Positions 7,003 to 51,773 of a stretch of 64,000 bases of DNA are shown piece after piece. The translations under genes and the position numbers were made by a program. The notes beneath the pieces were generated by a model, which ran no database searches, had not been told where the DNA came from, and saw nothing but the letters and a program-made list of their open reading frames with translations. The DNA comes from Triatoma infestans (lineage: Eukaryota; Arthropoda; Insecta; Hemiptera; Reduviidae), in the NCBI GenBank assembly GCA_011037195.1, contig JAAEAF010003592.1:62001-126000 (forward strand). The letters are read 5' to 3'. Within the stretch, counting starts at the first letter, position 1, and every line of letters starts with the position of its first letter.

Positions 7003-7590
7003 ATGACATTCAACTGTTTTTATTCGATATTACCAGATCAATATATTTTTGGGAACAAAAAATTAAAACGCTACATTAATTGTTGTGATGGTTGGTTTCC
7101 GCAGAGCTGGAAAGCATTAGAGACATTTTCCGTGGTAGCCTGCTTCATTTTGTGGTCATCGACCGGTTTCGGGCGTTCGCACATCTTTAGGATGCGTTTT
7201 TCAGACAGTGTGACAACACAGACTTGTACAGAGCAAACTTTGTTTTCACACCTGTGAAAACAAACTTTGGGTGAAAACAAAGTTTGCTCTGTACAAGTCT
7301 GTGTTGTCACATTGTCTGAAAAACGCATCCTGAAGATGGGCGAACGCCCGAAACCGGTACATGACCACAAAATGAAGCAGGCTACCACGGAAAATGTCTC
7401 TGACGTTACATTAATTTCTAGTATTTTATCCTTCGTAGCATGCATATTTCTAATATGCCAGACCGGCTTCGGAATTTCATCCAACGTCAGTGTGAATTTA
7501 TCAAGTTCTGTAGAGAGCTAATTTCAACTTAATGTTTCTGTTACACACTACACTTTTTGACTTGTTTATTGTATGTGCGGAAGTACATGT
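7003..7590 (+). repeat. Duplicated flank plus family B left arm (copy split by family A)
   Basis: The sequence CATTCAACTGTTTTTATTC through ACGCTACATTAAT and on into the family B left arm (7407-7575) repeats that at 8231-8470. Both copies share the junction between flank and family B, so the B insertion came before the duplication. The right half of B is missing here and the sequence runs into a LINE fragment. A family A element (7081-7406) later inserted at the flank/B junction. The arm includes GAATTTCATCCAACGTCAG, the reverse complement of the family B ribozyme-like core. Confidence 0.75.
7081..7406 (-). mobile_element. Family A palindromic element, copy 1
   Basis: A 326-bp insertion flanked by the 9-bp repeat TACATTAAT (7072-7080 and 7407-7415). 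The related empty site at 8301-8315 has it once. Left and right arms (about 7119-7240 and 7280-7402) are near-perfect inverse complements. A tail, TGTTGTGATGGTTGGTTTCC, is present only on the left. The right arm holds CCTGAAGATGGGC then GAACGCCCGAAACCGGTA, a hammerhead-like core with GUA in place of GUC. Open frames across it on both strands are palindrome artefacts. Confidence 0.88.
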
Positions 7591-8225
7591 TTATCATATG
7601 GGAATCTTTGGGAATGACGAGGTGGATAGGTTTGCCAAATTAGGCGCCTCGCTCCCTTTCATTGGTCCAGAGCCTGCTGTCGGTGTGTCTTCTGGCACAT
7701 GTTTATCAGGCTTTCAGACGTGGATGACCTCACAGTACTCATCCTTATGGATGAGTGCAGTGGGTTGTCGGCATCTAAGATGCTCATTGGGGGTACGGAC
7801 GGAGCTTGGAGTAGCGGGATCCGATGTCTTTCACGGACCTCTCTTAGGCATCTGGTTGGCTTCCTCACTGGGCATTGTGGCTTAAGGAGGCATCTCTATA
7901 CAATAGGACTCATGCCTGACCCCTTTTGTAGAGTTTGTGAGACGGAATAGGAAACACCCATGCATCTGACGACGGATTGTTTGGGGTGTGAGGAGATTAG
8001 GTTTAAGACCTTCGGCCGGAATAGGATATGGGTAAAGGATCTTAAGCTATGTCCTTTTAAGGTTTTGGTCCGATTTGTTCGGTCTGTGGTGAAACATAGA
8101 TGGTTAAAACCTGGGCCTAAATTTTTGTTCTAGTCCCAGTAGTTGGTATTCTTTAGGGGTAGCTATATGGGCCCTCGGAGGCTTTGGATAGCGTAGGGTT
8201 TTGCCCTCCCTTCTTTGAATAATAA
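7590..8225 (+). pseudogene. LINE RNase H and 3' end (R1/LOA/I-like)
   Basis: 'GIFGNDEVDRFAKLGA' is the last RNase H catalytic motif. 'FIGPEPAVGVSSG' and, after a frameshift near 7780, 'TSLRHLVGFLTGHCGLRRHL' are typical of LINE RNase H C-termini. The zinc-knuckle-like 'FCRVCETE' with 'HLTTDC' follows, with one in-frame stop. The coding end lies near 8130. The untranslated end (GCCCTCGGAGGCTTTGG) closes in an AAT-repeat tail at 8218-8230. The same family occurs antisense at 56890-58180. The fragment is 5'-truncated and dead. Confidence 0.85.
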
Positions 8226-8313
8226 TAATATTAAAGACATTCAACTGTTTTTATTCCATAATACCAGATTAATATATTTTTGGGAACAAAAAAATTAAAA
8301 CGCTACATTAATT

Positions 8314-8745
8314 TCTAGTATTTCATCCGTCATCGCATTCATATTTCTAATATTCCTGACCGGTTTCGGAATTTCATCCAACGTCAGAGTGAATTTATCA
8401 AGTTCAGTAGAGAGTTTATTTTCAACTTAATGTTTTTGCTACACACTACACTTGTTGACTTGTTTATTGTATGGTAGGTTATCGATGTCCCCCAAAAGAA
8501 ACATGCTATCACGCCAAAAACCTCTGACCACTTTATTAAACTTTTATTTAAACAATAACCTCTCGTATTTAAAATCAATGTCAACAAGTGTAGTGTGTAA
8601 CAGAAACATTATGTTGAAATAAACTCTCTACATGAACTTGATAACTTTACTCTGACTTTGGATGAAAATCCGAAACCGGTCAGGAATAACAGAAAAATCA
8701 TGTTATGACGGATAAAATATTAGATGTTATCCAGCCACATATTCA
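8314..8745 (+). mobile_element. Family B palindromic element, copy 1
   Basis: A 432-bp insertion flanked by the 12-bp repeat GCTACATTAATT (8302-8313 and 8746-8757). Inverted arms run at about 8316-8450 and 8590-8725, with an AT-rich loop between. A tail, ATGTTATCCAGCCACATATT, is present only on the right. The right arm reads CTGACTTTGGATGAAAATCC then GAAACCGGTC; the left arm's complement is CTGACGTTGGATGAAATTCC then GAAACCGGTC. This is the same hammerhead-like arrangement as in family A. There is no coding capacity. Confidence 0.85.
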
Positions 8746-8880
8746 GCTACATTAATTCTTTAGGTTCATTCTGTTGTTTCTTGCAAGAATCATAAAGAAG
8801 ATGAGAGAAATTAGTGTCTGGTATTCCTTTTATAATTGTTGATAGATATTGCTGATGAGCTCTATGTGACGACTATCTTT

Positions 8881-9693
8881 CAAAATTTATCTAAATCCTA
8901 ATATATTTTTATATTAAATAATTAAAAAAAATAAATTGTAAACACAATGAGAATAAAAAATAATAATAATAATAATATATAATTTCCACCATTTTTAAAG
9001 CATTCTCCCACAACTTTAAAGAAATTCAGTTCAATTAAATAATAATAATTTCAGAAGAATCGGTCAAAAGACTCTTATGAAACTTATTTTCACTAACAGA
9101 ATTCAAAGTTTCCGAAAGTGTTAGCGTAAAATGTTGTCACTGAATTTTCTCAGAATTGCGCTAAATATTTAATCACAGCAAAAATAAATTTGATCACTTG
9201 ATGCTATAATTTCAATAAAGAAAATAAGGGCAAATATTATATTAACTAAATTTTTATTCTAAATATCAAAAATGGCAATACATAACTAAATAATTTTCAA
9301 CTAAACACAGCAAATGAACAAGTGCTTCAGTTTTTATTTCGAATTTATCTGATTACTTTTATAGAAAAATCAAATAAATTCATAGCGCACAAAATTGACA
9401 CACAGTGACATATAATGCTTCAATTCGTATAATCATAAATATATAATAATCTTCTTTTGAAAAGTAGATAGCCGATGAAAGATATGTTTTAAATATTCAG
9501 ATAATCTACAAACGGATGACAGCTATTAGAATAATTTTTATAGACAATGAGATGTGATTTCATTAATATGGATGAACAGTGATTTGTATTAAATCAAAGA
9601 TCTTTTTCTTTTCTTTTTTATTCTCATTGTGTTTACAATTTATTTTTTTTAATTATTTAATATAAAAATATATTTAGATTTAGATAAGTTTTG
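8881..9693. mobile_element. Non-autonomous element with ~80-bp terminal inverted repeats
   Basis: The first ~80 bp (8881-8960, CAAAATTTATCTAAATCC...) are the near-exact inverse complement of 9613-9693 (...AGATTTAGATAAGTTTTG). The ~650 bp between have no open frame. I could not define a target duplication. The long inverted ends fit a DNA-transposon-derived MITE; the superfamily is not identified. Confidence 0.7.
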
Positions 9694-10269
9694 TCATTTC
9701 AACATTATAGCGTTGTCATTTAAATATATACATATTTATGGAGTAACAATCGGAAGTGCCCAATCCACTCTGGCGGTGCCTAAATTACTGATGTTATTTA
9801 TATTATAATAACCTGAATGTACAATCAAATTGCATTTTCTTAGAATATAATATTTTTTTTTATTTTTATCATCAAAACTTAAAGTCTTTAAAAAGTATAT
9901 TAAATTTCATAGCTTTTTTTCTTTAGAATGAGAAATCTAAAATCTGTCTGGGAAAAAATTAATAGTCACTGAATGTAGGGTGTCATAGCCGAGGGAACGT
10001 GAGAAGATTTCCGATAAATGGAAGTAAGCTCGTTAACATGAATAATCATAAAAATAGACTTTATTTATAATCCAATTATTAATGGGAATAAGTTCTATAC
10101 TTGCATTATTGGTTCTGCCATTTCGGACCACCTTAACTTGGAAGTTTAGGCTAACACTTTAAGTGTATAATCACTTTTAGGTTAATTTAACCCGGCTTTA
10201 GCATTGAATTATTTTTTTCATTAAATCATTTTACATTTTGATGTTTTGACAATAAATCTGTAATATTAT
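9694..10269. other. No gene seen
   Basis: AT-rich sequence with one less AT-biased patch (9960-10140) that matches nothing I recognise. Confidence 0.5.
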
Positions 10270-11240
10270 TAAAAAAAGAAAATCTCGTGAGAAAAACTCA
10301 CACAACTTTCTCTTACTCCAGTTCTCAAAATTATAATTGACAAATTTTATAGTTTGTGTACCAAATTTAACGAAATTCATCGAAAACTGAAAAAACTGTT
10401 CAGTAAAAGCTCACTTCCGGTTAACTAAATTTCTTAAAATTCGGAATCTAATTTAATTTGTTTGGATGACAGAATTGTATAATCAACTATGATAAGCACT
10501 TTGGAGGAAGTGCAAAAGTGCCTTCCTAAAGTGCCCTTAATGAATTTTCCCAAGAAATGTTTTAAAATAAAGAATTTTAGATCTTTGCAGTTTAGTTTTA
10601 TACAAAAGTTTCAAGAAAATCCTCGGAGCCATTTTTGAGAAAATCGCGAAAAAATGGAAAAATCATTTAGTAAACTGGTAAAGTAAACGCACTTCCGGTT
10701 ATCCGATTTTTTTCAAACTCGGAATTTCAACAACATATTTAATTGTAATTAACATGATTTAGATGGCAGAATTTCTAGTAAACTGAAATAGCACTTTAGA
10801 TGAAAACCTAACCCCACCCCTCCCCAATAAGTGCCCTTAAATGAATTTTTCTAGAGAAATGTTTCAAATAAAAGTTATAGCTGTTAGTATGTGTAGTTGA
10901 TATAGAAAGTTTGAAGAAAATCGTTGGAGCGATTTTTGAGAACATTGCAAAAACGTAAAAAAAACAACAAGTAAAGTGGTACTTCCGGTTGAGGAATTTC
11001 AACAGATGACCCACTGTCGGGTCCCATGGTGATAACTAAACGGAATATCAAGTTTAAACTTTTTACGATTTTTTGTTTTTGAGCTATGCTGTTCATACTT
11101 ATACACACACACAGACCATTTGCTAAAAACCACTTTTTTGGACTCAGGGGACCTCAAAACGGATAATTCCGGTAAAAACTGAATATGAAAATTTGACACG
11201 ATTGCAATACTTCCTCTTACTAAGGAGTAAGAGAAAGTAA
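10270..11240 (-). mobile_element. Family C repeat, full-length copy 2
   Basis: Antisense copy. It starts with AACTCACACAACTTTCTCTTA and ends with AAGGAGTAAGAGAAAG. The internal units repeat CACTTCCGGTT at about 10420, 10690 and 10980. GGGACCTCAAAACGGATAAT and a short ACACAC run mark the head. The overlapping open frames inside are not genes. Confidence 0.85.
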
Positions 11241-12172
11241 TAATACTATAAATGTAGAATAATATTAAAAATTATAATTATTACATACTAACATAAATGA
11301 GGCGTTACCAACCGTTCTATTGCATTTGAGAATAAATATGTTATTTTTATAGACTAAGTGTCGTTTAATATTTTTTTATTTATCCATTTTTGACTCCGTT
11401 TACTAAATAACTAGCTGAAGAAACCCCATCGAAATGTCAACAAAAATTGATAAATATTAGGAGTGATGAATTTTCATTATTCATAAATTGACAATTATTT
11501 TTGAAACTTGGAATTTCTATTTTTGACACTGAGTTGTATTTAACACTATATATAGATAGTCTCTAAAGTTTACAATTTCAAGAGAAGTACATCCTAACTT
11601 TTCCCTTGAAAAAGAAAAATATCGGAAAACAAAAATTAGTTAGTTTTCTCAGAAGACTGTGTGATATTTATTTTAAAGAATTACATCCAAGTCAATCGAA
11701 GTTTTTATTAGAATTCAAAGAGATCTTTTATTTTTACTGTTTTAACTCTGCCGTGAAAACACACGAATTTCTCTTACTTGCAATTGCCACAATTTTAATT
11801 GACAAAGTTTCATCGAATTTATATCTTTTATTAAACCATTAAGCCCATAATATTAAACAAAATTGAAACATTAAATTATACGCAATTAACTGGTAGCGAT
11901 TTGAGATAACCATAATATCGCAGCATCTCAGAAACATCAAAGGTCCAGTTTCTCGATAAAATTTTTGACAGAAAAGTGAAGGCCCATATATATTATGATC
12001 CATAAAGGATTATTTTTTTTCCCCAAATCGGAATCTGCTATGTAGAAAAGTTTAGTGAGGATCCAAAAAATTGGTATAGGGATTTAACTTATCGCATTCA
12101 AGTTAGTTCTATCTTCCTTTTCGTATTTGAGTGTCAAATTATTTTGAAAGAATTTGTCAGAAATCATTGGAG
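11241..12172. other. AT-rich stretch, no gene seen
   Basis: A 78-codon frame at 11606-11842 lacks recognisable motifs. Nothing else is supported. Confidence 0.5.
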
Positions 12173-12176
12173 TTAA

Positions 12177-14413: not shown

Positions 14414-14479
14414 GCGTATGATTATTATTATTATTTATTATTATATGATTATATATTAGTAACCTATCACGGGTTATTA

Positions 14480-20664: not shown

Positions 20665-21060
20665 AAAGTTGAATATGTGGATGTGTCCGCAATGCTGGAT
20701 AACATCTGGTAATGCTTTATCCATCATAGCATGCATATTCTTTTTATTCCTGTCCGGTTTCGGATTTTCATCCATCGTCAGAACAAATTCACCAAGTTCG
20801 TGTAGAGAGTTCAGTTCTTCAACGCAATATTTCTGTTACACTCGACACTTGTGGGCTGGTTGATTGAATGTGTGGAAGGTTATAAGGTTACGTTACTGTA
20901 ATATTTATAGTTATGTCGGTTATATGTCGAGTGTAACAGAAACATTGCGTTGAAGTGAACTCTCTACACACACTTGGTTGAATTTGCTCTGAAGTTCGAT
21001 GAAAAACCGAAATCGGTAAGGAATAAATAGAATTTGCATGCTACGATGGACAAAATACCA
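20665..21060 (-). mobile_element. Family B palindromic element, copy 2
   Basis: A 396-bp insertion flanked by the 9-bp repeat GATCAATAA (20656-20664 and 21061-21069). Arms at about 20720-20852 and 20925-21058 are inverse complements; the loop is ~70 bp. The tail (AATATGTGGATGTGTCCGC...) is on the left. The complement of the left arm holds an intact core: CTGACGATGGATGAAAATCC then GAAACCGGAC. Frames across it at 20545-20863 are palindrome artefacts. Confidence 0.87.
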
Positions 21061-21204
21061 GATCAATAAGTATTACTATAATTCCTAGTTTGATGAACAA
21101 GATTCCAGTCTGTGCAATTTTACAGAATATTGATTTTTGAGTTTTTGAAATTTTTTTCTAAAACTGTTATTTCAATTTTTCTTTTTTTTTTTACTTTCTC
21201 TTAC

Positions 21205-22025
21205 NNNNNNNNNNNNNNNNNNNNNNNNNNNNNNNNNNNNNNNNNNNNNNNNNNNNNNNNNNNNNNNNNNNNNNNNNNNNNNNNNNNNNNNNNNNNNNNN
21301 NNNNNNNNNNNNNNNNNNNNNNNNNNNNNNNNNNNNNNNNNNNNNNNNNNNNNNNNNNNNNNNNNNNNNNNNNNNNNNNNNNNNNNNNNNNNNNNNNNNN
21401 NNNNNNNNNNNNNNNNNNNNNNNNNNNNNNNNNNNNNNNNNNNNNNNNNNNNNNNNNNNNNNNNNNNNNNNNNNNNNNNNNNNNNNNNNNNNNNNNNNNN
21501 NNNNNNNNNNNNNNNNNNNNNNNNNNNNNNNNNNNNNNNNNNNNNNNNNNNNNNNNNNNNNNNNNNNNNNNNNNNNNNNNNNNNNNNNNNNNNNNNNNNN
21601 NNNNNNNNNNNNNNNNNNNNNNNNNNNNNNNNNNNNNNNNNNNNNNNNNNNNNNNNNNNNNNNNNNNNNNNNNNNNNNNNNNNNNNNNNNNNNNNNNNNN
21701 NNNNNNNNNNNNNNNNNNNNNNNNNNNNNNNNNNNNNNNNNNNNNNNNNNNNNNNNNNNNNNNNNNNNNNNNNNNNNNNNNNNNNNNNNNNNNNNNNNNN
21801 NNNNNNNNNNNNNNNNNNNNNNNNNNNNNNNNNNNNNNNNNNNNNNNNNNNNNNNNNNNNNNNNNNNNNNNNNNNNNNNNNNNNNNNNNNNNNNNNNNNN
21901 NNNNNNNNNNNNNNNNNNNNNNNNNNNNNNNNNNNNNNNNNNNNNNNNNNNNNNNNNNNNNNNNNNNNNNNNNNNNNNNNNNNNNNNNNNNNNNNNNNNN
22001 NNNNNNNNNNNNNNNNNNNNNNNNN
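21205..22025. other. Assembly gap (821 N)
   Basis: A run of N. The last bases before it (TTTACTTTCTCTTAC) match the outer end of family C, so the missing sequence probably includes a family C copy. Frames annotated across the N run are meaningless. Confidence 0.99.
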
Positions 22026-22929
22026 TAACAAATATTATAGCCCCCCCCTCACTATATTTGTTAGGTTACCCAAATTACGAGTAAAAAAAAATTCCAACTT
22101 AAAAAGGAAATTTGTTAATTTATAATTGTACAGCCGCAGTACGGGGAATTTCGCTGTGAATGTTCCACAATTCTATTATTATCACGTGAATTCCAAGAGA
22201 ATCCAAGAGACAAATCCATTACCAATGATAATAATATATATAATATAAAGATTCATTTATTTTTTATCGTGGATGTCCTTCTTTTTTTTTTGCAGACAAT
22301 ATTAATGATGCACAGCTGTCAATGATGCATGACATCTATTAAATAAATAAATAAATAAAAAGTATTTATATACGGGTATTTAAATAACTGCTAGATAATT
22401 CATCTTGTTCAGTGAACCAACGCTGTCCCATCAGCATTGTATTTTGACAATTTTATTTATTTCTTATTTAAAAATACATCATTCAATTAATTAAATTAAT
22501 ATGATCATCAATATTTATTTATTTAATAATTTATTTAAGATAATTTGATAATAATAAATTATTGTTAAAATTAGAATAATATAAATTTTTAATAAGAATA
22601 CATTAATTATTGTATTTTGAAGTGTGTTTTTAAATTGTAATAAATAACATGAAGTACAAGCGGTGCTCTGAAGTGAAGAAATGGAAAGATCTATTATGTG
22701 AAAATGGCCGGTGACGTGACACTCCAGCAAAAACAAACCCTTATATATAAGGACTAGGCAAGAACATGCAGGTGGCTTCTTACAACACGAACATTTTTCA
22801 TAAACAACTATATTATATTTATTAATAATTATTTTAAATATAATGTTTTATTTTATGTTTGTTATTTTCATATATTTATTATTTATATTGGAATAATGTC
22901 AACTTATCAATCTGATTAATTTTTATTTC
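22026..22929. other. AT-rich stretch with short microsatellites
   Basis: Contains an (AAAT)n run at about 22338-22362 and the palindrome TTATATATAAGG near 22740. No gene seen. Confidence 0.5.
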
Positions 22930-31087: not shown

Positions 31088-31366
31088 TGTAATGGGATCC
31101 GAATCATTAAAGATTCATAGGATCCGAAGAGCGAAGAAGCAGACATTAAATGAATAAAACGTTTGTTACTGCCCATCCAGGTCAGACTAGCAAAGGGAGA
31201 GTTCGATTTATATAAATAGAGCGATAGCAAAACAATTCAGTACAGTTTTATAACAGTACATCCAGTCAGCAACCTATCTAATAGTCAGCCAGTCGGTCTC
31301 TTTATATTTCTCTCGCTACCTGAATTCTATTTTACTATGAAGTCCTTGAACTATGTGTGTTGTATA

Positions 31367-32149
31367 TGTTACGCTCAAAGACCGAAAATGCTCATTGAGC
31401 GAAAAAAACAGCTCACAACGCGTTATGGTCACTGTAAAACATCCACATCGCAAAATTCGTGTTATGGCTCTTATGAAAACGCTCATGACGCGTTGGGGCA
31501 ATCAAAGAAAGACCGCATGGCGAAATTCGTGTCGTGGCTATCATGCTAGACGAACACAACGCATTCTCGCAATGAAGAAAAGCCATGATGCGTATGGAAC
31601 TATATTAGAACCATGTTCAACGAATTTTTGAATTTGTGCTATCTGCTCCAGGTTTAATAAATTTTTCAGTGTCACCACTGATTTTTAAGACATCATATCG
31701 TTTAAGACGATGATACTGCGTTGAAGATAGAGACTGGTTGTTTTTTTGTTTTTTTAAGAAGCTGAGATTGTTTTGTTTCATTAAGTAATGTTTCATATTT
31801 TTCTGTACTCAAGATAAAACTGCAATCAGTGCTTCTTTCCATAAACTCACGTAATTTATCATAAAACACTTCTTTTTTATTGGTCATGGTTAGCGCTAAT
31901 ATATACGTTCACCCTCAGAAACAGACAAGAAATGAATAAACAATTCTACTGATGTTTTAATGCATCGTTGTACTCAAAACCGACCAAGTTACAATGTGGT
32001 CTATCTGTGATTGCCACAACGCGTCGTGAACGTTTTCATAAGAGCCATAACACGAATTTCGCGATGTGCGTGTTTTACAGTGACCACAACACGTTGTGAG
32101 GTGGTTTTTTTTTTCGCTCAATGAGCATTTTCGGTCTTTGAGCGTAACA
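31367..32149 (-). mobile_element. Ginger-like DNA transposon derivative with ~150-bp inverted repeats
   Basis: Starts TGTTACGCTCAAAGACCG and ends CGGTCTTTGAGCGTAACA. The left arm (31367-31515) and right arm (32000-32149) are near-complete inverse complements with internal ACGCGTT-type repeats. It is flanked by TATA on each side (31363-31366 and 32150-32153). TGTNR-type ends with a 4-bp duplication fit Ginger elements, as does the antisense integrase-like leader inside, but TATA is self-complementary, so the duplication length is uncertain. Confidence 0.6.
31680..31887 (-). pseudogene. N-terminal fragment of a KRBA2/Ginger-type integrase protein
   Basis: The complement starts 'MTNKKEVFYDKLREFMERST' and continues 'STEKYETLLNETKQSQ'. 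After a frame change it reads 'RLKRYDVLKISGDTEKFI'. This resembles the leader before the zinc-binding and integrase core of KRBA2-like proteins, common transposon-derived proteins of arthropods ('YxLLKRYDVL' motif). The integrase core itself is absent. Placement inside the inverted repeats suggests an internally deleted carrier element. Confidence 0.4.
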
Positions 32150-32279
32150 TATACATTATACAGTGCTCAGCATATCATCTAGTTTATTTCTAATCTCATA
32201 TCCTAAAATTCATTCTCTCAAATTCGCTCTCCTTCTCTCACCCCCATTATACACTTTAATGAATAGATGTTACAGCTTT

Positions 32280-34378: not shown

Positions 34379-35255
34379 CAGCTAATTTTACCGGTAGCCA
34401 AAGAGTTAGATAGCTACACCTTTGCGAATATTTCAGAGTGATTGTTTCAGAAAGAGATTTAATACTATCTTGTAAAATATGCATTGACATCTAAAATTAT
34501 CAGTTTAGAGTAGTCATTCAAATCGTCAGAACGGCGGACTAAGTACCAAGATGCTAGCATAAAATATCCGCAAGAAGATCTTTTAAATTCAATATTTAAT
34601 TTGTCTAAACCCTTTTACTGATTAAATATTTTAAGACGGAATGATGCAGACAAGCATAAATTTATTTCTGTGAATTTGTTGAAAACATAAATCCAGGATA
34701 CGCATATAGTTAGCGCAGCTTTATAGCTAATGTTAATCACTAAAACTTACGTATTGTTAAACAAGAAAGAATTGATAAATGAACAGGAATTGTCAGATAT
34801 CGACATTTTTCTAGATTCGAGAAAAAGGGATTATCTCGAATTATTTTCTGTAATAAAGGTTTCTTGCAAATCGAATGCTCCATTGGATACTTGTTCTCCG
34901 TACTCAGAATGCATCTGTTAGCATGGATGTGAAAAAATTATTTGTTAGAAGATTTTAAGTGACATTTTTGTATGTTCGAGTTCAAGTTTACAATGAAACT
35001 CATTAAAAAAGAAGAAGATTTAAAACTGAATAAAACTAGACAATCTTTATCTATTAAATAAATATGGAGAAGGTTACCATCCGAAAATTGTATAGTATTT
35101 TGGATTATCTAAGGATTTACTTTATCGAAAAGTTTACTAAAAAAATATTAAATTTGAACCATCTTTGACAGCGGAGTTTCATGTAAAACAACACAACGTC
35201 ATTTCGTAAGTGGCGTAAAATTATAAATCCCCAAATTAACACCTAAGGATATGTA
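34379..35255. other. No recognised gene
   Basis: Unassigned sequence with a 63-codon frame at 34730-34921 that I do not recognise. Confidence 0.4.
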
Positions 35256-36090
35256 AAAATCTGGTGTGAAACACTCACACAACTTTCTCTTACTCCAGTT
35301 CTCAAAATGATAATTGACAAATTTTATAGTTTGTGTACCAAATTTAATGAAATTCGTCGAAAACTGAAAAAACTGTTCAGTAAAAGCGCACTTCCGGTTT
35401 ACTAATTTTCTTGAAACTCGGAATTTCCGCCATCTATTTATTTCTAACTAATTATGTTTGGATGATAGAATTGTATAATCAACTAGGATAGCACTTTGAT
35501 GAAAATCTAACCCCACCCCTCCCCTAAAAGTGCCTTAAATGAATTTTCCCAGAGAAATGTTTTAGACAAAAGTTGTAGATCTTTGCATGTTTAGTTTATA
35601 TACGAAGTTTCAAAAAAATCGTCAAAGCCATTTTTGAGAAAATTGCGAAAAAGTAAATAAATCATTTAGTAAAGTGGTAAAGTAAACGCACTTCCGGTTA
35701 TCCGATTTTTTTCAAACTCGGAATTTCAACAACATATTTAATTCTAATTAATATTATTTTGATGACAGAATTGTCTAATAAACTGAAATAGCACTTTAGA
35801 TGGAAACCTAAACCCACCCCTCCCCCAAAAGTGCCCTTCAATACATTTTCCCGAAGAAATGTTTCAAATAAAAGTTGTAGTTCTTTGTATGTGTGGTTGA
35901 TGTTTGACGTTTAAAGAAAATCGTCGAGCCATTTTTGAGAAAATCGCAAAAAAGTAAAAAATCCAACTTGTAAAGTGGTACTTCCGGTTAAGGAATTTTG
36001 ACAGATAACGTACTGTCAGATCACATGGTGATACCGAAACGGAATATCATGTTTGAACTTTCTGCGATTTTTCATTTATGAGCTACGCTG

Positions 36091-36121
<31 letters not shown>

Positions 36122-36266
36122 CACATATACAGACACACACAGACCATTTGCTAAAAACCACTTTTTTGGACTCAGGGGACCTCAAAACGGATATTTCCGG
36201 TGAAAACTCGATATCGAAAATTTGACACGATTACAATACTTCCTCTTACTTAGGAGTAAGAGAAAG
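35256..36266 (-). mobile_element. Family C repeat, full-length copy 3
   Basis: The best-preserved copy, about 1010 bp. It starts AAAAATCTGGTGTGAAACAC, then has CTTTCTCTTACTCC, and ends in GGAGTAAGAGAAAG at 36253-36266. Three internal CACTTCCGGTT / TACTTCCGGTT sites at 35389, 35689 and 35979 show repeat periods of 300 and 290 bp. A CATA microsatellite fills the usual microsatellite position (36093-36123). Confidence 0.88.
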
Positions 36267-38340
36267 AAAAAAAAAACTTCTTATGGACAAACAATGAATA
36301 AAAGTACACTTATATTTTCTCATTTTAAGAAGTATTTAAAAAAAAAATGATAATAAAAATATTTTAAAAAAAACAACAAAAAATTGAAAAATAAAGTCTA
36401 TCTAAGAATTAATGACATTTTGTTAAAAATAAGTTATTTTACATGTCCGAAATATTTGAGAATAAAAGAATGTGTTAATGCAAAAAGTTCATTTAGTCCT
36501 GTCTTTTGTAAAAAATATTAATCTAAAAAACATTCAATTAAGGCGACAGGAATAATAATCAATTAAGAGTAAAACATTAATTTTCTTGTTACATGATAAA
36601 AAAAAATAAAAAAATAAAGTAAAATAAAATAAAATAAAAAATAAATGAAGCACCATATGTGGTACATTACATGATACGGAGTGGCAACATTTTCGGCACA
36701 TTGTTTCAAAAGTGGTTATAATAAGTAATTCCCCAACCCTCATCCTAACAAAAAATTCTTGTGGATGGTCAACTATAGTGAAAAATGGACAGCCAATTAC
36801 CCTGCTGTCTGGCTAACGAAGTCAGCCTGCCAATTTAATGGATCCAACTACGGCCGTAATGCCTCCGCCCACTCTACACTATCTAACCAACAGACCAGTG
36901 AACAGAGAGAGTGAGAGAGAGAGGAATACAACACAGTTGTTGTATTTTTGAGTTTCAAGACAGCACACAAACTCATAAAGAGGAATGAAATATCTCTTTA
37001 CTGAAGGGAGTATGAGGGCAAAATGGTCATGGAGTGTTGTTTTTGTGGTAGTGGTTGTATTTCCGCCTGTAATTATTAGATGGGATTCTTACCAAGCAGG
37101 GAAGTATTTTTGTTGCTAGTAAACCAGTAGCCAGCGCACCCTCTTCATGGTAAGCAGGTAGCAGTCTCAAGTTATTCTTTTCTTCGCACACCATTAAACT
37201 GTTTACGAAAGTTATTAAAGTTAAAGTGTATTTTCTTATCTAAAACAAAAAATCATGCTTTACTTTATTATTTTTCTTAACATTTGAGGTGATAAATAAT
37301 TCTATTTCGCATTAAGAAACTCTAGATGATACTTGTTACTATAGATTATATTCATTCTTTTAACAGATCCTAAATGGGACCAACCCATAAAGAAAGTTTA
37401 AACTGACCACATATATAAATTTTTGACCAATCAATCTAGCAATTGAGGAATTTGGTTTTTGAGATTTGGCCTCCCCTTGAATAAAATTCTCCAATTTTAA
37501 AATTAATATTCTCTTGATTATTTAAGCAACCACTTTATCCAAGAGCTCACTTGTATTTTTTCCCAATTATTCTTTAAATCAAAAACCAATATTATTTTTA
37601 TAATAATATTTATTTAGAAAGATATGCAAAAATACAATTATATAATATATAAAATATAAATAGCAATAGCTTTACAGCCGTCTGCTAGAGTTCACTGCAA
37701 AAAAAAAATAATAATAACACAAATAAAATTATTCTCAAATTTTAAATGGTCCGTAAAAACAATTAAAAACAAGAAATAGTTAAAGCAAAATGTGCTCGAA
37801 ATAAGTTCAAAAAGAAAGAAAAGACAAAAACGCAAAAAGGAGGGGAAAAGAAAACAGAACTGGCAGATTAAATAAAAGAGTTACATTACTTTCACATTGA
37901 AAAATCACACCTTGTAAATAAGAGGGCGAACAGAAAATGAGAGAAAACATGAAATCTATAGGGTCATAAAGATAATATTAGAGATATTATTAACAATAAT
38001 AATAATCAGTATTCAGCTAACCAACTGTATCTAACCTTCCAGTCGTGGCGAGCGTATTTGAGCAAAGGACGAGGATGTTCTTGGCCAGACAAAAAAGAAA
38101 TTATATCTGCCCTTGGGAGAGTACGTTTATTTAAATAAAGCAATCGAAATTTGCCTCCCAAAAGGCTTCCCAGGAAATGATACAAATCTTCCTAAAACCA
38201 ATATTAATTTGCAGTTCTTATCACTGATGAAGTAATAATTGACTAAAAATTCCTATAGCACCTAATTAAGAAATTTGTAGTAAAGTCAAAATTGAAATTC
38301 AATTTAGCTACCATTGTGTAGGATCCAATAAGAAGGTAAT
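36267..38340. other. AT-rich stretch, no gene seen
   Basis: Includes a less AT-rich patch at 36770-37150 with GAGAGAGA runs and a patch at 38040-38180. No motif or repeat relation was recognised. Confidence 0.45.
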
Positions 38341-38380: not shown

Positions 38381-38730
38381 TTAATTGTTGTGGTGGTTGG
38401 TTCCGCAGAGCTGGAAAGCATCAGAGATATTTTCCGTGGTAGCCTGCTTCATTTTGTGGTCATCGACCTGTTTCCGGCGTTCGCCCATCTTCAGGATGCG
38501 TTTGCCAGACAGTGTGATAACACAGATTTGCACAGAGTAAATTCCGTTTATACACTCCTCTAGTACAGGAGGTTTATACACTCCTCTAGTAAGAGTGTAT
38601 AAACTGAATTTACTCTGTGCAAGTCTGTGTTATCAAACTGTCTGACAAACGCATCCTGAAGATGGGCGAACGCCCGAAACCGGTCGATGACCACAAAATG
38701 AAGCAGGCTACCACGGAAAATGTCTCTGGT
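38381..38730 (-). mobile_element. Family A palindromic element, copy 2
   Basis: Tail at left (TTGTTGTGGTGGTTGGTTCC). Arms lie at about 38420-38560 and 38590-38728, with a small loop containing a further short inverted repeat (CACTCCTCTAGTA). It is flanked by near-identical 9-mers GATTTTCTT (38372-38380) and GATTTTCAT (38731-38739). The right arm holds GCATCCTGAAGATGGGCGAA then CGCCCGAAACCGGTCGATG, the most complete hammerhead-like core. It is inserted in a family C fragment (38341-38380, 38731-38800). Confidence 0.82.
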
Positions 38731-38800
38731 GATTTTCATTAAATTTTGCATACTAACTATATTGGCCTAGCTGAAACATTTTCTTATTTTCTAGAAACAT

Positions 38801-39817: not shown

Positions 39818-39826
39818 TCCAATAAA

Positions 39827-40158
39827 TCAGAAATATTTTCCGTGATAGCCGGCTTCTTTTTGTGGTCATCGACCGGTTACTGGCATACGCCCATCATCAG
39901 GATGTTTTTGTCAAATAGTGTAATAACACAGACTTGCACAGAGCAAATACAGTTGATACAGCAAATACATTGATACAAATACAGTTGATACACTCGTATC
40001 AACTGTATTTGCTCTGTGCAAGTCTTTGTTATTACACTGTTTGACAAAAACATCCTGATGACAACGCCCGAAATTGGTCGATGACCACAAAAAGAAGCAG
40101 GCTATCACGGAAAATATTTCTGATGCTTTCCAGCTCTGCGGAACCAACCACAACAATC
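39827..40158 (+). mobile_element. Family A palindromic element, copy 3
   Basis: A 332-bp insertion flanked by the 9-bp repeat TCCAATAAA (39818-39826 and 40159-40167). The tail (CCAGCTCTGCGGAACCAACC) is on the right. Around the core the right arm reads CATCCTGATGACAACGCCCG then AAATTGGTCGATG, with half of the stem deleted. The left arm complement keeps CTGATGATGGGCG, with GGTAACC changes. The ribozyme-like core is probably inactive here. Confidence 0.88.
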
Positions 40159-40430: not shown

Positions 40431-40438
40431 CTTAATAC

Positions 40439-41130
40439 TCATTAATATTATTTAGCTAATAAAATCGTACGGCAATCAATGAAATGTCACTTTAAAAGGA
40501 AGTCTAACTCGAAATTTTAGCTATATATTAAATTTAATACTCATTAATATTATTTAGCTAATAGATCCGCAATGCAATCAATGAAATGTCACTTTAAAAG
40601 GCACTCTATCTCGAAATTTCAGCTATATATTAAATTTAATACTCATTAATATTATTTAGCTAATAGATCCGCAATGCAATCAATGAAATGTCACTTTAAA
40701 AGGCACTCTATCTCGAAATTTCAGCTATATATTAAATTTAATACTCATTAATATTATTTAGCTAATAGATCCGCAATGCAATCAATGAAATGTCACTTTA
40801 AAAGGCACTCTATCTCGAAATTTCAGCTATATATTAAATTTAATACTCATTAATATTATTTAGCTAATAGATCCGCAATGCAATCAATGAAATGTCACTT
40901 TAAAAGGCACTCTATCTCGAAATTTCAGCTATATATTAAATTTAATACTCATTAATATTATTTAGCTAATAGATCCGCAATGCAATCAATGAAATGTCAC
41001 TTTAAAAGGCACTCTATCTCGAAATTTCAGCTATATATTAAATTTAATACTATTAATATTACTTAGCTAATAGATCTGTACTACAATCAATGAAATGTCA
41101 CTTAAGCAGGAAGTCTAACTCGAAATTTTC
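40439..41130. repeat. 102-bp minisatellite, about 6.8 units
   Basis: Unit boundaries at the TTTAATAC step are exactly 102 bp apart (40438, 40540, 40642, 40744, 40846, 40948, 41050). Five internal units (40541-41050) are identical base for base. The first and last units share variants (GGAAGTCTAACTCG) that differ from the inner ones (GGCACTCTATCTCG). Confidence 0.98.
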
Positions 41131-41575: not shown

Positions 41576-42375
41576 GTGAAGAAAAGTTTAAAATATTACC
41601 ATTAAAAAAGATATCAATAATACCAAATAACAATACTAATAGATTAGCTACGGCATTAATAGAAATGATAGTAGACTTTTAATCAAAGAATAATTAATAT
41701 CCATATTTTTTTTTATATTAATAAAAAAATATAAATCATTTCATAAAATTGTTTTTATTACTGTTATTATATGAGTGAATAGAGGAAGAGAATTTTAACG
41801 AATATGCATAACCCAGAGGGCAGAGAATGTTGATGGAAAGGGAATAGGGTTGGTGTTGCACTGGTACATACACATGCAATGAGGGGGGGGGGAGACAAGC
41901 ATACCAAATACCAGGGATGCAAAAGGTAGTGACAATGGTGAGAGGAAGCGGCTGAAAGGATAGTATGTTTACTGGCGTTTTGCTTATATGTTACATGTTA
42001 TGCATAGCAAACGAAACATTTCAAAATTCGTTGAATTAAACCAATATCCAAATATGCTTTAGTTTAAATATTGAAATATATATTTAAAAATATTTTATTT
42101 TTAATGGTACTATACGTATATTTATTACATTTCCTTTTTTACCTCTCTCCCGGGATTCGTTTAAATTCCAAATTATTAATTTATTTTGTTAGATAAATAG
42201 ATTAATTCATTTAATAGAGAACTTTCGTGTAGCTTAAATTGAATAAAAATATAGTATTGGTATAAATACCAACTTTTAAGGAAATGTATTAGTGAGTAAA
42301 TTAGGAAAAAATGAAAAGTAATTCAGTAAAATATTTAAAAGACGATTGAGCCCATAGTACACAGAAACATGAGAG
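41576..42375. other. No gene seen
   Basis: AT-rich, with a G-rich patch (GGGGGGGGG) at 41883-41892. No supported feature. Confidence 0.45.
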
Positions 42376-42890
42376 ATTTTTTTCTTTATTAGCCTGATTC
42401 ATTTTATGGTCATCACCAAGTTTCGGGCATAATTAGGGTGATATTTTAGACTAGCATTCAGCCAGAATAGATTGTAATTGCTTATAATGGATATCTTAGG
42501 TGGAGAGAATTTAGGTCTGATACGATGATATAAGAAGGAGACTTGGTTAACACTGGTTAACTAATATATTAATTAAGAGACACAGACTGCCTGGACTTTA
42601 CAACAGAGAAATGTTTTAAGGTAGAGTGGTATAAAAATGACACGTAGTAATTGGATGTATTGAACTGAATTCAACTGTGTTTTTATGGACTGTCCGTCGC
42701 TATATTTATACTGTTTCTCCCACTCCACTCCGAGTGAGTGGTTGAGCTTCTCTTTGCTCTCTTTGGTTGCTGAGCTTCTCTTTGGTTGCTGTTACATGCT
42801 TGTACTGCCGTGACGATCTCACACCCCAATCAGGACTTTTTGAAAAAAAACTAAAATCGATCTATGAACACAAAATGAAGCAAGCTCAAA
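42376..42890. mobile_element. Old family A element split by a family E LTR
   Basis: Outer left-arm sequence (TTATGGTCATCACCAAGTTT CGGGC) at 42405-42430 and the matching right arm (GATCTATGAACACAAAATGAAGC) at 42860-42883 bracket the LTR at 42483-42796. Strongly diverged. Confidence 0.5.
42483..42796 (-). mobile_element. Family E LTR-like repeat with possible TGCT duplication
   Basis: The complement starts TGTAACAGCAACC and ends CCATTATA. It is flanked by TGCT on both sides (42479-42482 and 42797-42800), consistent with a 4-bp target duplication and supporting the LTR reading of family E. Confidence 0.6.
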
Positions 42891-43157: not shown

Positions 43158-44262
43158 ACTGTTTTTTAACAGAATATCTCAAAAACGTAAAAAGTCGTAG
43201 GAATATGTGCTGTTCACATATACACGGTGTCCCAAGGTATATGGATAACGACTTTTTCTCGGAAACTAAGGTAGCTAGAAAAAAAAACTAAAAAATACAT
43301 GTCCCCGTAGTTTTTTTTGTTAGAAATCCAAATTTAATTTGCAAATTTGTTTTGGTGCTTCCAGAAGCGAGATACAGGCAGGCACCAACTCCATTTTTTC
43401 AAATAGAGAGGTGTGGTTTTTATTTAAGAAATAGATTCCTCTATTTTTTGTAAGAAAAATTTACTTGAACGGTTTTTTTCTGTGAGCGATATTTTACAAG
43501 TAATGAATGAAAACATGATTCTTATAAGAAATTTCCAAATGATATTATAACGGTTTTTTGATTGATTAAGAAGAAAAGTACTATTTTATTATAAAACTTT
43601 ACTCCTCATTAATTACAGATTTTGCTCGAACTGGCCTCCACCAATTGGAGATGTATTTCTTTGGTCGTAAGGTACAATTAGCAGCAAAAAGCATAGGTAT
43701 GCATCTCTAATGGTGGGGGCCAGTTCGAGCTAGATCTGTAATTAATGAGGAGTAAAATTTAGAATAATATAGTACTTTTCTTCTTAATCAATCAAAAAAC
43801 CGTTACAATATCATTTTGAAATTTCTTATAAGAATCATATTTTCATTCATGCTTGTAAAATATCGCTCAAAGAAGAAAACCGTTCAAGTAAATTTTTCTT
43901 ACAAAAAATAGAGGAATCTATTTCTTAAATAAAAACCACACCTCCCTATTTGAAAAAATGAAATTGGTACCTGTATCTCGCTTCTGAAAGCGACAAACAA
44001 ATTTGCAAATTAAATTTGGTTTTCTAACAAAAAAACTACGGGGACACGTACCTTTTATTTTTTTTCTAGCAATCTTAGTTTCCGAAAAATGTCGTTATCC
44101 ATATAGCTTGGGTCACCCTGTGTATACAAACACATACAATTCGTTAAAAACACTTTTTCTTATTCAGGGGACCTCAAAACGTATATTTCCGGTATAAACG
44201 CAATTTTGAAAATCTAGCACGATCGCATACTTCCTTTTACTAACAGTAAGAAAGAGTAAAAA
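43005..44262. repeat. Two inverted family C heads flanking a palindrome
   Basis: A sense family C head (43005-43200, with a TG microsatellite at 43117-43152) and an antisense head (44140-44262, ending AACAGTAAGAAAGAG) face each other across the ~900-bp palindrome. The whole block is one nested inverted repeat about 1.25 kb long. Confidence 0.8.
43221..44124. repeat. Large palindrome with ~430-bp arms
   Basis: Left arm 43221-43654 (TACACGGTGTCCCAAGG...) and right arm 43700-44124 (...CTTGGGTCACCCTGTGTA) are inverse complements with few mismatches, around a ~45-bp loop. There is no coding capacity; the 64-codon frame at 44003-44197 is incidental. Confidence 0.92.
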
Positions 44263-48549: not shown

Positions 48550-48559
48550 ATGATTTTAA

Positions 48560-49423
48560 TTTTCTGACCCACCCCTGTTCGGTAACTCGATCTGGTATAC
48601 AGATGGATCCAAAACTCCGACTGGGGTCGGAGCTGGGGTCTACGGGGGCAGGCCTAAAGTTAAAATTAAGGCCAGCCTAGGGAAGTACGCCACGGTCTTT
48701 CAGGCTGAAGTCGTGGCGTTACAACTCTGCGCTAGGATTATAACGCAAAGGATAGTAGGTAGAAGAGTGGCCAGATACTACGACAGTCAGGCAGCCCTGA
48801 AGGCACTTTCCTCACACCTAATAGTCTCAAGACTGGTGTGGGACTGCCTACTTGCCCTCACCGAGGTGGGTACTCGGAATAAACTGACACTCGCCTGGGT
48901 GCCGGGACATGCGGGGTTCCTGGGCAATGAGAGGGCGGATGCCCTAGCGAGGGAGGGCTCGCAGGATACCTTTATAAGCCCCGAACCCTTCTGCGGCTTG
49001 TCCAGGAGCCTCATTCAAACTTCTATCAGGGGATGGTTAGAAGATCAGCGTCTGCGTTGGTGGGAGGAAACACCAGGACAGAGGCAGGCAAAGCTCTTCA
49101 TTAAAAGACATCTGCCTAAATTTACCAAAGACCTACTGAGTCAGACCCAAAGGGATATGAGGTTAATTGTGGGTCTACTAACAGGGCATTGTAGGCTCAA
49201 TAGACACATGCACCACCTACAACTTGCGGATAGTGCGGTATGCCAATTCTGCAAGGTAGAGGAGGAGACGCCGGCGCACATCCTTTGCGAGTGCGCCAGC
49301 CTGGCGAGGATTAGGTTTCTTCAATTGGGGACGGGCAATCCCGAAGCTGTAAGCTTCATGACGGAGCCGCTCTTAGCTTTGCTAGGATTGATTATGAGAG
49401 CAAAGCTGGGGGCTGTTCTGTAA
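48560..49423 (+). CDS. LINE ORF2 C-terminus: RNase H domain and zinc knuckle
   Basis: An uninterrupted frame from the stop at 48557 to the stop after 49423. The LINE-derived part begins near 48566; internal GTG or ATG starts are irrelevant because the protein is truncated at its 5' side. It shows all four RNase H catalytic motifs: 'WYTDGSK' (D), 'FQAEVVAL' (E), 'YDSQAALKAL' (D) and 'GNERADALA' (D). 'AWVPGHAGFLGN' is the histidine loop. A C-terminal knuckle 'CQFCKVEEETPAHILCEC' gives C-x2-C-x8-H-x4-C. 'LTGHCRLNRHMHHLQL' is typical of this group. The domain would remove RNA from the hybrid made at target-primed integration. No promoter or reverse transcriptase remains. Confidence 0.93.
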   Translation, partial: FSDPPLFGNSIWYTDGSKTPTGVGAGVYGGRPKVKIKASLGKYATVFQAEVVALQLCARIITQRIVGRRVARYYDSQAALKALSSHLIVSRLVWDCLLALTEVGTRNKLTLAWVPGHAGFLGNERADALAREGSQDTFISPEPFCGLSRSLIQTSIRGWLEDQRLRWWEETPGQRQAKLFIKRHLPKFTKDLLSQTQRDMRLIVGLLTGHCRLNRHMHHLQLADSAVCQFCKVEEETPAHILCECASLARIRFLQLGTGNPEAVSFMTEPLLALLGLIMRAKLGAVL

Positions 49424-49500
49424 CTTAAGGGATGCACAATAGACCTCGACTTGTAGGTCGCAGTGGAATGAGGCTCCCTCCCCCGCTTCTATTCTATTCT
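48566..49500 (+). mobile_element. Young 5'-truncated LINE insertion (R1/LOA/I-like)
   Basis: A 935-bp insertion whose coding part is fully open. It is flanked by ATGATTTTAATTTTCT (48550-48565) and ATGATTTTAATTTCT (49501-49515), a 15-16-bp target duplication differing by one T. The 3' untranslated end closes with a short TTCTA/TATTC repeat tail. Open frame, clean tail and near-perfect duplication make it the youngest LINE copy here. Confidence 0.93.
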
Positions 49501-49580
49501 ATGATTTTAATTTCTAAAAAAATAAAAAAGTGTTCCCAAACAAAAAGCAGATTCAAATAAAATTCAAATAGTAATCACAA

Positions 49581-49840
49581 TCAGAGACATTTTCCGTGGT
49601 AGCCTGCTTCATTTTGTGGTCATCGACCGGTTTCGGGCCTTCGCCCACCTTCAGGATGCGTTTTTCTGACAGTGTGCTAAATTTTGCTCTGTGCAAGTCT
49701 GTCTTGTGACACTGTCAGAAAAACGCATCCTGAAGATGGGCGAATGCCCGAAACCGGTCGATGACCACAAAATGAAGCAGGCTACCACGGAAAATGTCTA
49801 TGATGCTTTCCAGCTCTGCGGAACCAACCACCACAACAAG
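49581..49840 (+). mobile_element. Family A palindromic element, copy 4 (small loop)
   Basis: A 260-bp insertion with 9-bp duplication TAATCACAA (49572-49580 and 49841-49849). Arms join almost directly (AAATTTTGCTCTG at the centre). The tail is on the right. The sense core is GCATCCTGAAGATGGGCGAA then TGCCCGAAACCGGTCGATG. The antisense core of the left arm is complete too, with a slightly altered stem loop (GGGCGAAGGCCC). Confidence 0.92.
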
Positions 49841-50008
49841 TAATCACAACTAATTGAAAACTGTTTGCTGGAACCTTACATAGCCTTTTGTAAATGATTT
49901 TCACCACTTTTTATGTTTAAAATGCGCTATTGGGTATACCACTATTTTCTGCATGCTTTCGCCAGAGGTACACATTCTAAACATTACATTTTTGATAAAC
50001 AGTATCTA

Positions 50009-50304
50009 ACAGAGATATTTTCCGTGTGTAGCCTGCTTCTTTTTATGGTCATCGACCGGTTTTTGGGTCAAACAGTATAATAACATAGACTTGCACAGAG
50101 CAAATACACTGGATTTTAAAAGTCTTTCAAAGTGATAACAAACACTTTTCAAATCCAGTGTATCAACTGTATTTGCTTTGTGCATGTCTATGTTATTACA
50201 TTGTTTGACAAAAACATCCTAATGATGGGCGAACGCCCGAAACCGGTCGATGACCAGAGAGAAAATACCTCTGATGCTTTCCAGCTCTGCGGATCCAATC
50301 ACAA
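50009..50304 (+). mobile_element. Family A palindromic element, copy 5
   Basis: A 296-bp insertion with 9-bp duplication CAGTATCTA (50000-50008 and 50305-50313). The tail is on the right. The right-arm core reads CCTAATGATGGGCGAACGCC then CGAAACCGGTCGATG, with one change (CUGA to CUAA) in the conserved core. The left arm has lost its stem part. Confidence 0.87.
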
Positions 50305-50619
50305 CAGTATCTATCTTTGGTAGCTTATACTTACATCCATCGTTATCATATACCCTTTCTGTTTTTATGAAATAAACTGCCTTTAATAAGACATTGATTC
50401 GGGTGTATGACAACAATAATTATGGAGCAACTACAATCGAGCTGTTTCTCGGCCCATTCGGTCTTCAATTTCGTCTCTGTCCATACCCGATTTTCCCTTG
50501 CTCCATTTCTGAAAGAAGAGATTTCCTGATGTCATGGGTCAATTTAAAATCATTGGGCATACTTAAATAGGTATTGAACAGAATACCTGCGATATTTCGT
50601 GTTTTAAGTTATTTTGTTC

Positions 50620-50755
50620 ATGAGCGAGCAGCATTTCACTAAAAACCACTTTCTTCATACTCAGAGAGAGAGAGGACTTCGAATTATGTATATTTGGTGA
50701 AGACTCAGCTTGGAAAATTTGACACTACTTTTAAGTTCCGTTTAAGAACAATAAA
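50620..50755 (-). repeat. Family C head fragment
   Basis: CACTAAAAACCACTTTCTTC ATACTCAG, GTATATTTGGTGAAGACTCA and TTTGACACTACTTTTAAG match the antisense head. Confidence 0.6.
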
Positions 50756-50786
50756 GTATGGGGAAATTAATTAGCGAAAATATAAA

Positions 50787-51773
50787 TTGTTATGGTTGTG
50801 GTTGGTTTCGCAGAGGTGGAAAGCATCAGAGATATTTGCCGGGATAGTACTTTTCTTTTCGGGCGTTCGCCCATCATCAGGATGCTTTTTGTCAAACAGT
50901 ATGTGATAATATAGTGTAATGTTATGTATTGGAGGGTATATTAACTAGATGTATTATGTTTTTATTAATAATTAATTATTATAATTTATATTTGGAATCT
51001 TTTCAAAAGGGATTTCGTGAGGTCTGTGTTTATCTGAACTGAGGAGGAATACAAAATACCCAAAAGAACACACATAAAAAGAAATATTCATATATTATAC
51101 AAATAATTAATAAAATAGATACAAAACTTATTCGTTTGTAAATTATTAAACTAATATTTTATAATCACATTTCGGAGGAGTAGAAACTTACAAATTATTA
51201 GTCTTCGACTTGAAGGTTGGGCATTTTGAATGAGGTCCACCATACACTACTACAACTTTTCAGGGAACACTCCGGCACAGCTTCAGTCTAAATTTTTGAT
51301 TCCCCTAATTATTGTCGCCCTTACATATATATACCTTTTCCACCCCTAGAAGAGTGGAAGGGATGGAAATTCCCTTCACTGTAATTATGAAAGGTATTCA
51401 ACTTTCCTAACTGTGCTCTTTTGTGGTTATCTGACCTTCAAAAAACCCAGCCTCAACTTGGCTTTATAATCTAAATTTATAATCTAAATTTTTAAGATAT
51501 AATCAAAATTCTAAGATTTTTTTATTTATAATAATTATTCGAATTATTATAAGAATTTCTTCCAACAGTGTGCATATTACAATAGATTTCCACAGAGCAA
51601 ATTTTGTTGATACATTCATGTTACATTCATCATTGATTGTATTTCATTCATTGTACCATTGATGCACTATGTTATCACACTGACAAAAAAGCATCCTGAT
51701 GATGGGCGAACGCCCGAAACCGGATGATGACCACAAAAAGAAGCAGGCTATCACGGAAAATATCTCTGATGAA
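50787..51773 (-). mobile_element. Family A palindromic element split by a solo LTR
   Basis: Flanked by the 9-bp repeat AAATATAAA (50778-50786 and 51774-51782). The tail and left arm (50787-50914) and right arm (51586-51773) are separated by the LTR at 50915-51581 plus its duplicated ATAG. The element itself is about 316 bp. The right-arm core is CATCCTGATGATGGGCGAAC then GCCCGAAACCGGATGATG, where the cleavage-site GUC has become GAU. Confidence 0.85.
50915..51581 (-). mobile_element. Solo LTR with 4-bp target duplication (ATAG)
   Basis: A 667-bp insertion starting TGTAATGTTATG and ending GCATATTACA, flanked by ATAG (50911-50914 and 51582-51585). The interrupted family A arm continues across it. 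On the minus strand a GGTATATATATGTAAGG promoter-like stretch suggests antisense orientation. Its sequence is unrelated to the LTR at 3293 apart from the TGTAAT ends. Confidence 0.88.

Follow-up and report, generated by a model that had tools for sequence, protein, structure and literature searches.

The palindromic repeats considered here lie in a 64,000-nucleotide stretch of the Triatoma infestans genome (assembly GCA_011037195.1, contig JAAEAF010003592.1, forward-strand positions 62,001 to 126,000), hereafter the window, which an initial annotation had described as holding mobile elements with a hammerhead-ribozyme-like core in their arms. These palindromes consist of truncated copies, joined back to back, of a highly abundant Penelope-like retrotransposon (Penelope-like element, PLE) and are no palindromic element in their own right. 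With a probability of roughly 0.9, the two families of arms, A and B, are copies of endonuclease-type PLEs, and their core is a minimal type I hammerhead motif located where the pseudo-long terminal repeat (pLTR) meets the open reading frame (ORF). The finding is genuine but belongs to a known kind, and one regularity within it, a one-tail rule by which exactly one arm of each sampled palindrome carries a tail, is its unusual point and is worth testing.

The hammerhead-like motif is genuine and far above chance. The exact pattern CTGANGATN12GAAACCGGTC has 12,903 + 12,676 matches in the 941-Mb genome, compared with 0 for the reversed pattern used as a control; a 35-base family A core has 5,322 + 5,188 matches and its family B counterpart 697 + 693. 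Within the window, CTGANGAN{4,24}GAAAC occurs 10 times versus 0.52 expected. The pattern CTGANGAN{7,30}GAAACGTC, which represents the families with an ACGUC-type core, has 3,712 + 3,723 genome matches versus 26 + 40 for its reversal; families C and D were sought in the window and none was found there. The self-complementary core of helix III varies by family, being ACCGGU in A and B and ACGU in C, D, E and F.

The identity of family A follows from its connection to a PLE ORF. Among 30 family A and 30 family B loci, each fetched by its core, four A loci (L053, L058, L062 and L063) extend upstream of the core into a PLE ORF of the same orientation (E 1.3e-7, 3.6e-5, 5.2e-5 and 0.02), and the reading frames upstream of these cores show a GIY-YIG end. 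The order in L053 is the end of the GIY-YIG ORF, then a pLTR of about 1.15 kb, then the core, and the Pfam GIY-YIG model matches L063 at E 2.6e-4, marginally under its gathering score. A search with the L063 segment gave at least 150 matches (150 of 5,585 candidates were scored, every one matching), one of which, on contig C132, lies inside an open frame of 841 amino acids (aa). The start of this frame, read in L097, is CTGAAG-ATG-GGC-GAA-CGC-CCG-AAA-CCG-GTC-GAT..., encoding MGERPKPVDDHKMKQATTENVSDAFQLCGTNHHNKYGASEAK; by coordinates, 823 codons in one frame lead from its ATG to the GIY-YIG end, and of these the N- and C-terminal parts were read. In a second copy of the ORF, an 828-aa frame, pLTR, core and ORF are joined in the same way, with loop II differing by one base. 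Because the A core sits on the ORF start (CTGAAG-ATG-GGC), the extra U that the initial annotation had seen before helix II is the U of the AUG, a codon whose third base also serves as the first G of helix II; cleavage, if it takes place, would fall after codon 8. The pLTR end stands before the ORF in L097 and L098 and after the GIY-YIG end in L053, these being separate copies. RVT_1 and GIY-YIG both score above cut-off in the related ORF of L028. A GIY-YIG family search gave at least 38 matches (150 of 1,157 candidates scored), and a family C hammerhead-like core was present near the endonuclease in 25 of 30 GIY-YIG loci (2 with one base changed), forming an inverted outward pair around it in 4 of the 30. 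The A GIY-YIG segment matched two proteins when it was searched against a protein database (E 2.3e-21 and 1.7e-7). The kinship with minimal, possibly dimeric PLE hammerheads that had been proposed from the letters is borne out, as the A core is the motif that a PLE of this genome carries at its pLTR and start codon.

The ends of the copies carry the second line of evidence. Across the A and B loci, 5' ends are variable and 3' ends are clustered. Measured from CTGA, the 3' end lies at 74–80 nucleotides (nt) in 15 of the 30 A loci and at 107–116 in 12, the others being at 88, 99 and 102, and these clusters match both reverse transcription (RT) start sites and the tail of PAc, a lizard PLE (PMC11167929; here and below, papers are cited for the passages compared). 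The long end, or tail, is the AC-rich stretch AACCACCACAACAA. For family B the reference for the ends was the L094 copy, truncated at 115–116, so that long B ends are limited there and the right end of L094 is a self-match. An opposite core stands within 500 nt upstream in 31 of the 60 loci, which represent 28 distinct insertions after L038, L077 and L089 were dropped as second views of the same insertions; L058, whose opposite core is downstream (+231), was left out of the palindrome count. In all 28 two-core insertions the arms end unequally, one of them 55–88 nt after CUGA and the other 107–117 nt after it; the value of 55 is that of L085 and L086. The other 29 loci lack an opposite core in the 500 nt upstream; 8 of them have a partial or farther inverted arm (L047, L050, L057, L065, L066, L070, L082 and L093), and the same short/long rule applies in all 8, with a short end at 40 in L065 and on the assumption that the distant arms in L047, L066 and L093 form one insertion each. 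The remaining single-arm copies have either end type. Direct repeats of at least 7 bp flank 20 of the 28 palindromes versus 25 of 756 mismatched flanks. Core-to-core gaps span 54 to 373 nt and take 27 different values among the 28 palindromes, which therefore look like separate events. Among 100 listed of the 7,435 ACGUC-type places, neighbours no more than 4 kb apart form 19 pairs, of which 18 face outward. Arm identity inside and between elements shows no clear difference (0.911 versus 0.894 in A, 0.857 versus 0.845 in B). Judged from these ends, the palindromes are 5'-truncated head-to-head insertions, most of them with target-site duplications.

The core itself has the parts of a minimal type I hammerhead, namely CUGANGA, GAAA, a cleavable UH, helix II and helix I, the last lacking in the common B forms. 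The stable intramolecular helix III of canonical type I hammerheads is absent, ACCGGU and ACGU being self-complementary and loopless. When gap lengths of 0 and 1 were tried on 48 distinct cores in 359 kb, helix II reached at least 4 bp in 25, and all 25 need a one-nucleotide gap, which confirms that the gap before helix II is real. Helix II of at least 4 bp with exactly one unpaired nucleotide after CUGANGA occurs in 64 of the 100 listed ACGUC-type places (26 of 59 distinct inserts), with two unpaired nucleotides in 2 places and with zero in none, while shuffled inserts reach 2.0%; in the other listed places the pairing is decayed or absent. Both helix I and helix II show covariation from one PLE family to another. 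Over seven families, 98.2% of the cells of both helices are paired versus 61.2% after shuffling, and 23 cells are double changes versus 8.3; helix I alone is paired in 96.4% of cells, and helix II over nine families has 13 double-change cells versus 3.0. The families were picked for a helix II of at least 4 bp, not for helix I, which measures 4 bp in A and 4–6 bp, with covariation, in D, D2, E and F. The initial annotation had named compensatory changes within helix II as a check, and such changes are present between families.

Folding predictions separate the isolated core from the complete palindrome. Helix II forms with a pair probability above 0.95 in 4 of 4 short core RNAs and at 0.77 or more in 3 of 4 single arms, the exception being insertion A1 (0.16–0.17; located below); in whole palindromes it forms in 0 of 4, with a pair probability of 0.0, and in the transcript of a complete palindrome the core is therefore predicted to be in duplex. 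The idea that a transcript of either direction carries a core is right in that it can do so, but pairing with the other arm abolishes helix II in all four elements folded.

Several observations weigh against assigning both families to hammerhead-bearing PLEs. None of the 30 B loci has a PLE ORF match, the best being no lower than E 1.3, and the shared homology of B ends by −421 nt in 29 of 30 loci (L071 reaches −1248), so the placement of B among PLEs rests on shared ends, the N-terminal peptide and geometry. The A and B N-termini are homologous with a score of 63 versus a shuffled mean of −17.0 (standard deviation 8.7, maximum 25), and the homology extends past the core (residues 11–35, with 0 of 2000 shuffles as high). 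Helix I has at most 2 bp in the common B forms listed. The covariance-model check proposed from the sequence turned out both ways. Model R1, built from families C, D, D2, E and F with A and B excluded, placed family A cores at ranks 1–7 of the window (E 0.003 for the best two, 0.2 for the third), so that just two A cores fall below E 0.01, and the B core came at E 8.2, rank 17 of 19; the window, a 101-base segment around 38652 and five loci were searched with the Rfam hammerhead models, and nothing matched at E 10 or below. Lastly, 8 of the 28 palindromes have no direct repeat of at least 7 bp.

The initial annotation had suggested ribozyme-bearing non-autonomous elements. The corresponding view, in which the short palindromes would move as whole units with the hammerhead taking part in their cycle, draws on their very high copy number, on the intact core of some arms and on the use of hammerheads by known retrozymes (PMC7229834). 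It is largely refuted and in our judgement highly improbable: centre lengths differ among the 28 insertions, whose 27 different core-to-core gaps are unlike what copies of a single unit would show, an opposite core within 500 nt upstream is missing from nearly half of the sampled loci and from 18 of the 30 A loci, 4 of the 30 A loci reach into the PLE ORF, and the folded palindromes lose helix II. The core letters could also be conserved solely as code for the PLE N-terminus (MGERPKPV / MDENPKPV), the likeness to a hammerhead being accidental. The A core is indeed coding, B reads likewise and the peptide homology extends beyond the core, but families D, E and F, with no ATG in the core, still keep CTGANGA, helices I and II and GAAACGUC with compensatory changes, and residues that differ between A and B (G to D, R to N) preserve the pairing, which leaves this explanation hardly tenable. 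To fold-back or MITE-like (miniature inverted-repeat transposable element) DNA transposons with inverted repeats we assign a negligible chance; inverted arms and target-site duplications would suit them, whereas single-arm 5'-truncated copies, ends within the PLE ORF start, unequal outer ends and variable duplication lengths would not.

A more serious alternative concerns only how the inversion arises, namely by self-priming of a single complementary DNA (cDNA) or of antisense RNA and not by priming at both target ends. This route has been published for the same head-to-head products in the Penelope element of Adineta vaga (PMC3846280), and 27 of the 28 palindromes share the variable CUGANGA base between their arms, as a single template would produce, though nearly all sampled copies of a family share that base. 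Self-priming should, however, copy the tail and give equal outer ends, whereas each of the 28 palindromes combines a short end with a long one; arms within an element are also hardly more alike than arms of different elements, though decay may mask such a signal. We consider self-priming unlikely, with a chance that is still appreciable.

What can be read from the sequences is the link of family A to a PLE ORF, the 3' ends within about the first 110 nt of that ORF, variable 5' truncation, target-site duplications, inverted pairs that face outward and base pairing that is kept from family to family. In the route inferred for their origin, the PLE protein would nick both target strands, reverse transcription would begin once at each of two RNA start sites, one per target end, and the two truncated cDNAs would join by their 5' ends into an outward-facing palindrome with one tail. 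A further-reaching reading, at somewhat less than even odds, is that every complete inverted PLE insertion consists of two cDNAs, one per RT start site; the tail would then be the sign of an asymmetric (dimer-like) double priming that is obligatory, not of an extension that is optional. By analogy with PAc, the uncut RNA may be both messenger RNA and insertion template, and the hammerhead may cut weakly or solely with bound protein; the inserted palindromes would be dead ends with their cores locked in duplex. In vitro, the PAc protein cuts and extends both target strands, and the PAc hammerhead cleaves solely with protein present and is dispensable for insertion (PMC11167929); a similar protein-dependent cleavage may apply here. 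Two points count against the double-priming route. The PAc work found no strand difference in the RT start site in vitro (PMC11167929), which the two-start model does not explain, and locus L075 is apparently short/short, its score of 20.5 lying near background (null maximum 16.7).

Much of this has precedents in print. Minimal hammerheads in PLE pLTRs and in thousands of dispersed copies (PMC7761336, PMC6155905, PMC7229834), the overlap of the hammerhead with the start codon (PMC11167929) and inverted pLTRs of which one carries a tail (PMC3846280) have been published. Among the closest known systems is PAc (Anolis; Penelope/Poseidon type), which like family A has a hammerhead over the ORF start with the ORF beginning at stem II, a cut about 24–26 nt after the start codon, a GIY-YIG ORF and a pLTR, and in which RT starts 111–118 bp into the ORF with the tail between the two start sites, similar to the ends found here (PMC11167929). 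The elements differ from PAc in host and sequence and in having ACCGGU as the helix III core, and the A ORF is known by its N- and C-terminal parts. Penelope of Adineta vaga likewise has an inverted pLTR beside the element, head-to-head junctions, 8–10 bp duplications in some copies, a 31-bp tail on one inverted pLTR and a pLTR that includes the first ORF codons; 37 ORFs were presented for it, while here there are more than 25,000 exact core matches and many copies are bare palindromes (PMC3846280). The tail was called optional in Adineta vaga (PMC3846280), in contrast to its presence on exactly one arm in 28 of 28 insertions here, and no per-insertion tail count was found in the published PLE passages compared. 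Non-LTR retrozymes are also small hammerhead-bearing repeats in animal genomes, but they are short tandem repeats of about 300 bp with canonical type I hammerheads, unlike the inverted truncated PLE copies seen here (PMC7229834). The arms are inverted and mostly outward-facing, not tandem, and the tandem arrays listed for the window all lie clear of the cores. Described minimal PLE hammerheads share CUGANGA/GAAA, a short or absent helix III, possible dimers and a large copy number with the present cores (PMC7761336, PMC6155905). The single unpaired nucleotide between CUGANGA and helix II may set the present cores apart from them. Minimal hammerheads are reportedly also the subject of Cervera and de la Pena 2014 and Lunse et al. 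2017.

The window holds eight such insertions, 7 of which have one short and one long end; flanking repeats of 7–12 bp accompany all 8, compared with repeats of at least 7 bp in 6 of 56 mismatched pairs. A1 (7077–7403, family A; left arm tailed, right short) is flanked by TACATTAATT (7072–7081 and 7407–7416) and lies in a duplicated flank whose paralogue at 8285–8330 is an empty site; its left core (7154–7194, minus strand) has CUAA in place of CUGA, and its right core (7326–7359, plus strand) has intact core letters with cut site GUA and a broken helix I. The flank that holds A1 belongs to a second copy of a B left arm (7417–7574, minus strand). B1 (8314–8735, family B) has the direct repeat GCTACATTAATT and a tail that, judged by eye, carries a deletion, and B2 (20668–21063; left arm tailed, right short) has GATCAATAA. 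A2 (38382–38738; left long, right short) has a flanking repeat (GATTTTC) that is weak at 7 bp; its right core (38652–38692, plus strand) has the full hammerhead letters and helix I, with the PLE-frame ATG at 38662–38664. A3 (39826–40156), A4 (49580–49842) and A5 (50010–50306), each with a short left and a long right arm, are flanked by TCCAATAAA, AGTAATCACAA and AACAGTATCTA, respectively, and the right core of A4 (49726–49766, plus strand) again has full letters and helix I. A6 (50795–51771; left long, right short) has arms about 760 nt apart, both assumed to belong to one insertion. Degenerate arms lie at 42365–42428 (family A) and 52816–52948 (family B), both on the minus strand.

The state of these cores qualifies what had been read from the letters. 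The family A cores at 38652 and 49726 (plus strand) hold at those coordinates, their arms are inverted repeats, and the right core of A6 (51692–51729) has no cut site, as first reported. The statement that all hammerhead parts are present in the arms was overstated: among 17 window arms checked (12 A, 5 B), CUGANGA, helix II, GAAACCGGU and a cleavable H are kept in 3 (7330, 38656 and 49730, all on the plus strand), and complete letters plus helix I in 2 (38656 and 49730). The A arms at 50215 and 7154 have CUAA and that at 49618 has CUGAAGG, and blocks are altered or absent in the A arm at 38458, both A3 arms and the left arms of A5 and A6. None of the 5 family B arms has a complete core. The supposed CUGACGA of the B1 right arm is not there, 8651–8682 reading CTGACTTTGG with CTGACTT where CTGACGA was expected; that of the B2 left arm (20746–20782, minus strand) is intact, with CCGGAC in place of CCGGUC (cut site GGAC).

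Rfam plant and animal microRNA models match the palindrome hairpins below their gathering scores (49623–49761, 39917–40038 and 7210–7311; MIR6136 on both strands), and these strongest Rfam matches are taken as artefacts of the hairpins, a caution for automatic annotation. A pyrimidine-rich tract that ends in AG 2–7 nt before CUGA and resembles a 3' splice site is present in PLE families C, D2, E and H (L004 for E, L006 and other C loci, L083 for H, L096 for D2) and was not seen in D of L015, F, A or B; if it is a real splice site, splicing would alter the 5' strand of helix I. Decayed sequence resembling the start region of a PLE (CTGACGATGGACGATGTCACCCAAAAGAAAC...), perhaps from another family, lies at 5695–5751 and 8483–8528. 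Other large inverted repeats, with no listed hammerhead core, occupy 43211–44132, 31347–32169 and 8881–9693, and a tandem array of 6.8 copies of a 102-bp unit (96% matches) lies at 40432–41128. A dispersed repeat of about 1 kb, 82–86% alike and with an internal unit of about 300 bp, occurs at 4509–5479 (minus strand), 10265–11240, 35255–36272 and 60047–61047, three copies being spaced almost exactly 25 kb apart. The window further contains two fragments 78% alike (7594–8140 and 56975–57518), an SCARNA7 (small nuclear RNA-type) Rfam match at 60829–61020 (E 0.0027), an assembly N run at about 21200–22030 and a 287-aa open frame at 48560–49423 (plus strand), which we take to resemble the RNase H end of a Jockey-type long interspersed nuclear element.

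The identity of the hammerhead-like palindromes is settled, and their odd extra U is explained by the start codon. The rule of one short and one long end, as seen in the sampled insertions, constrains the route of PLE insertion, and with the genome of T. infestans as a source of thousands of natural PLE insertion products, the two-start, two-strand model becomes directly testable.

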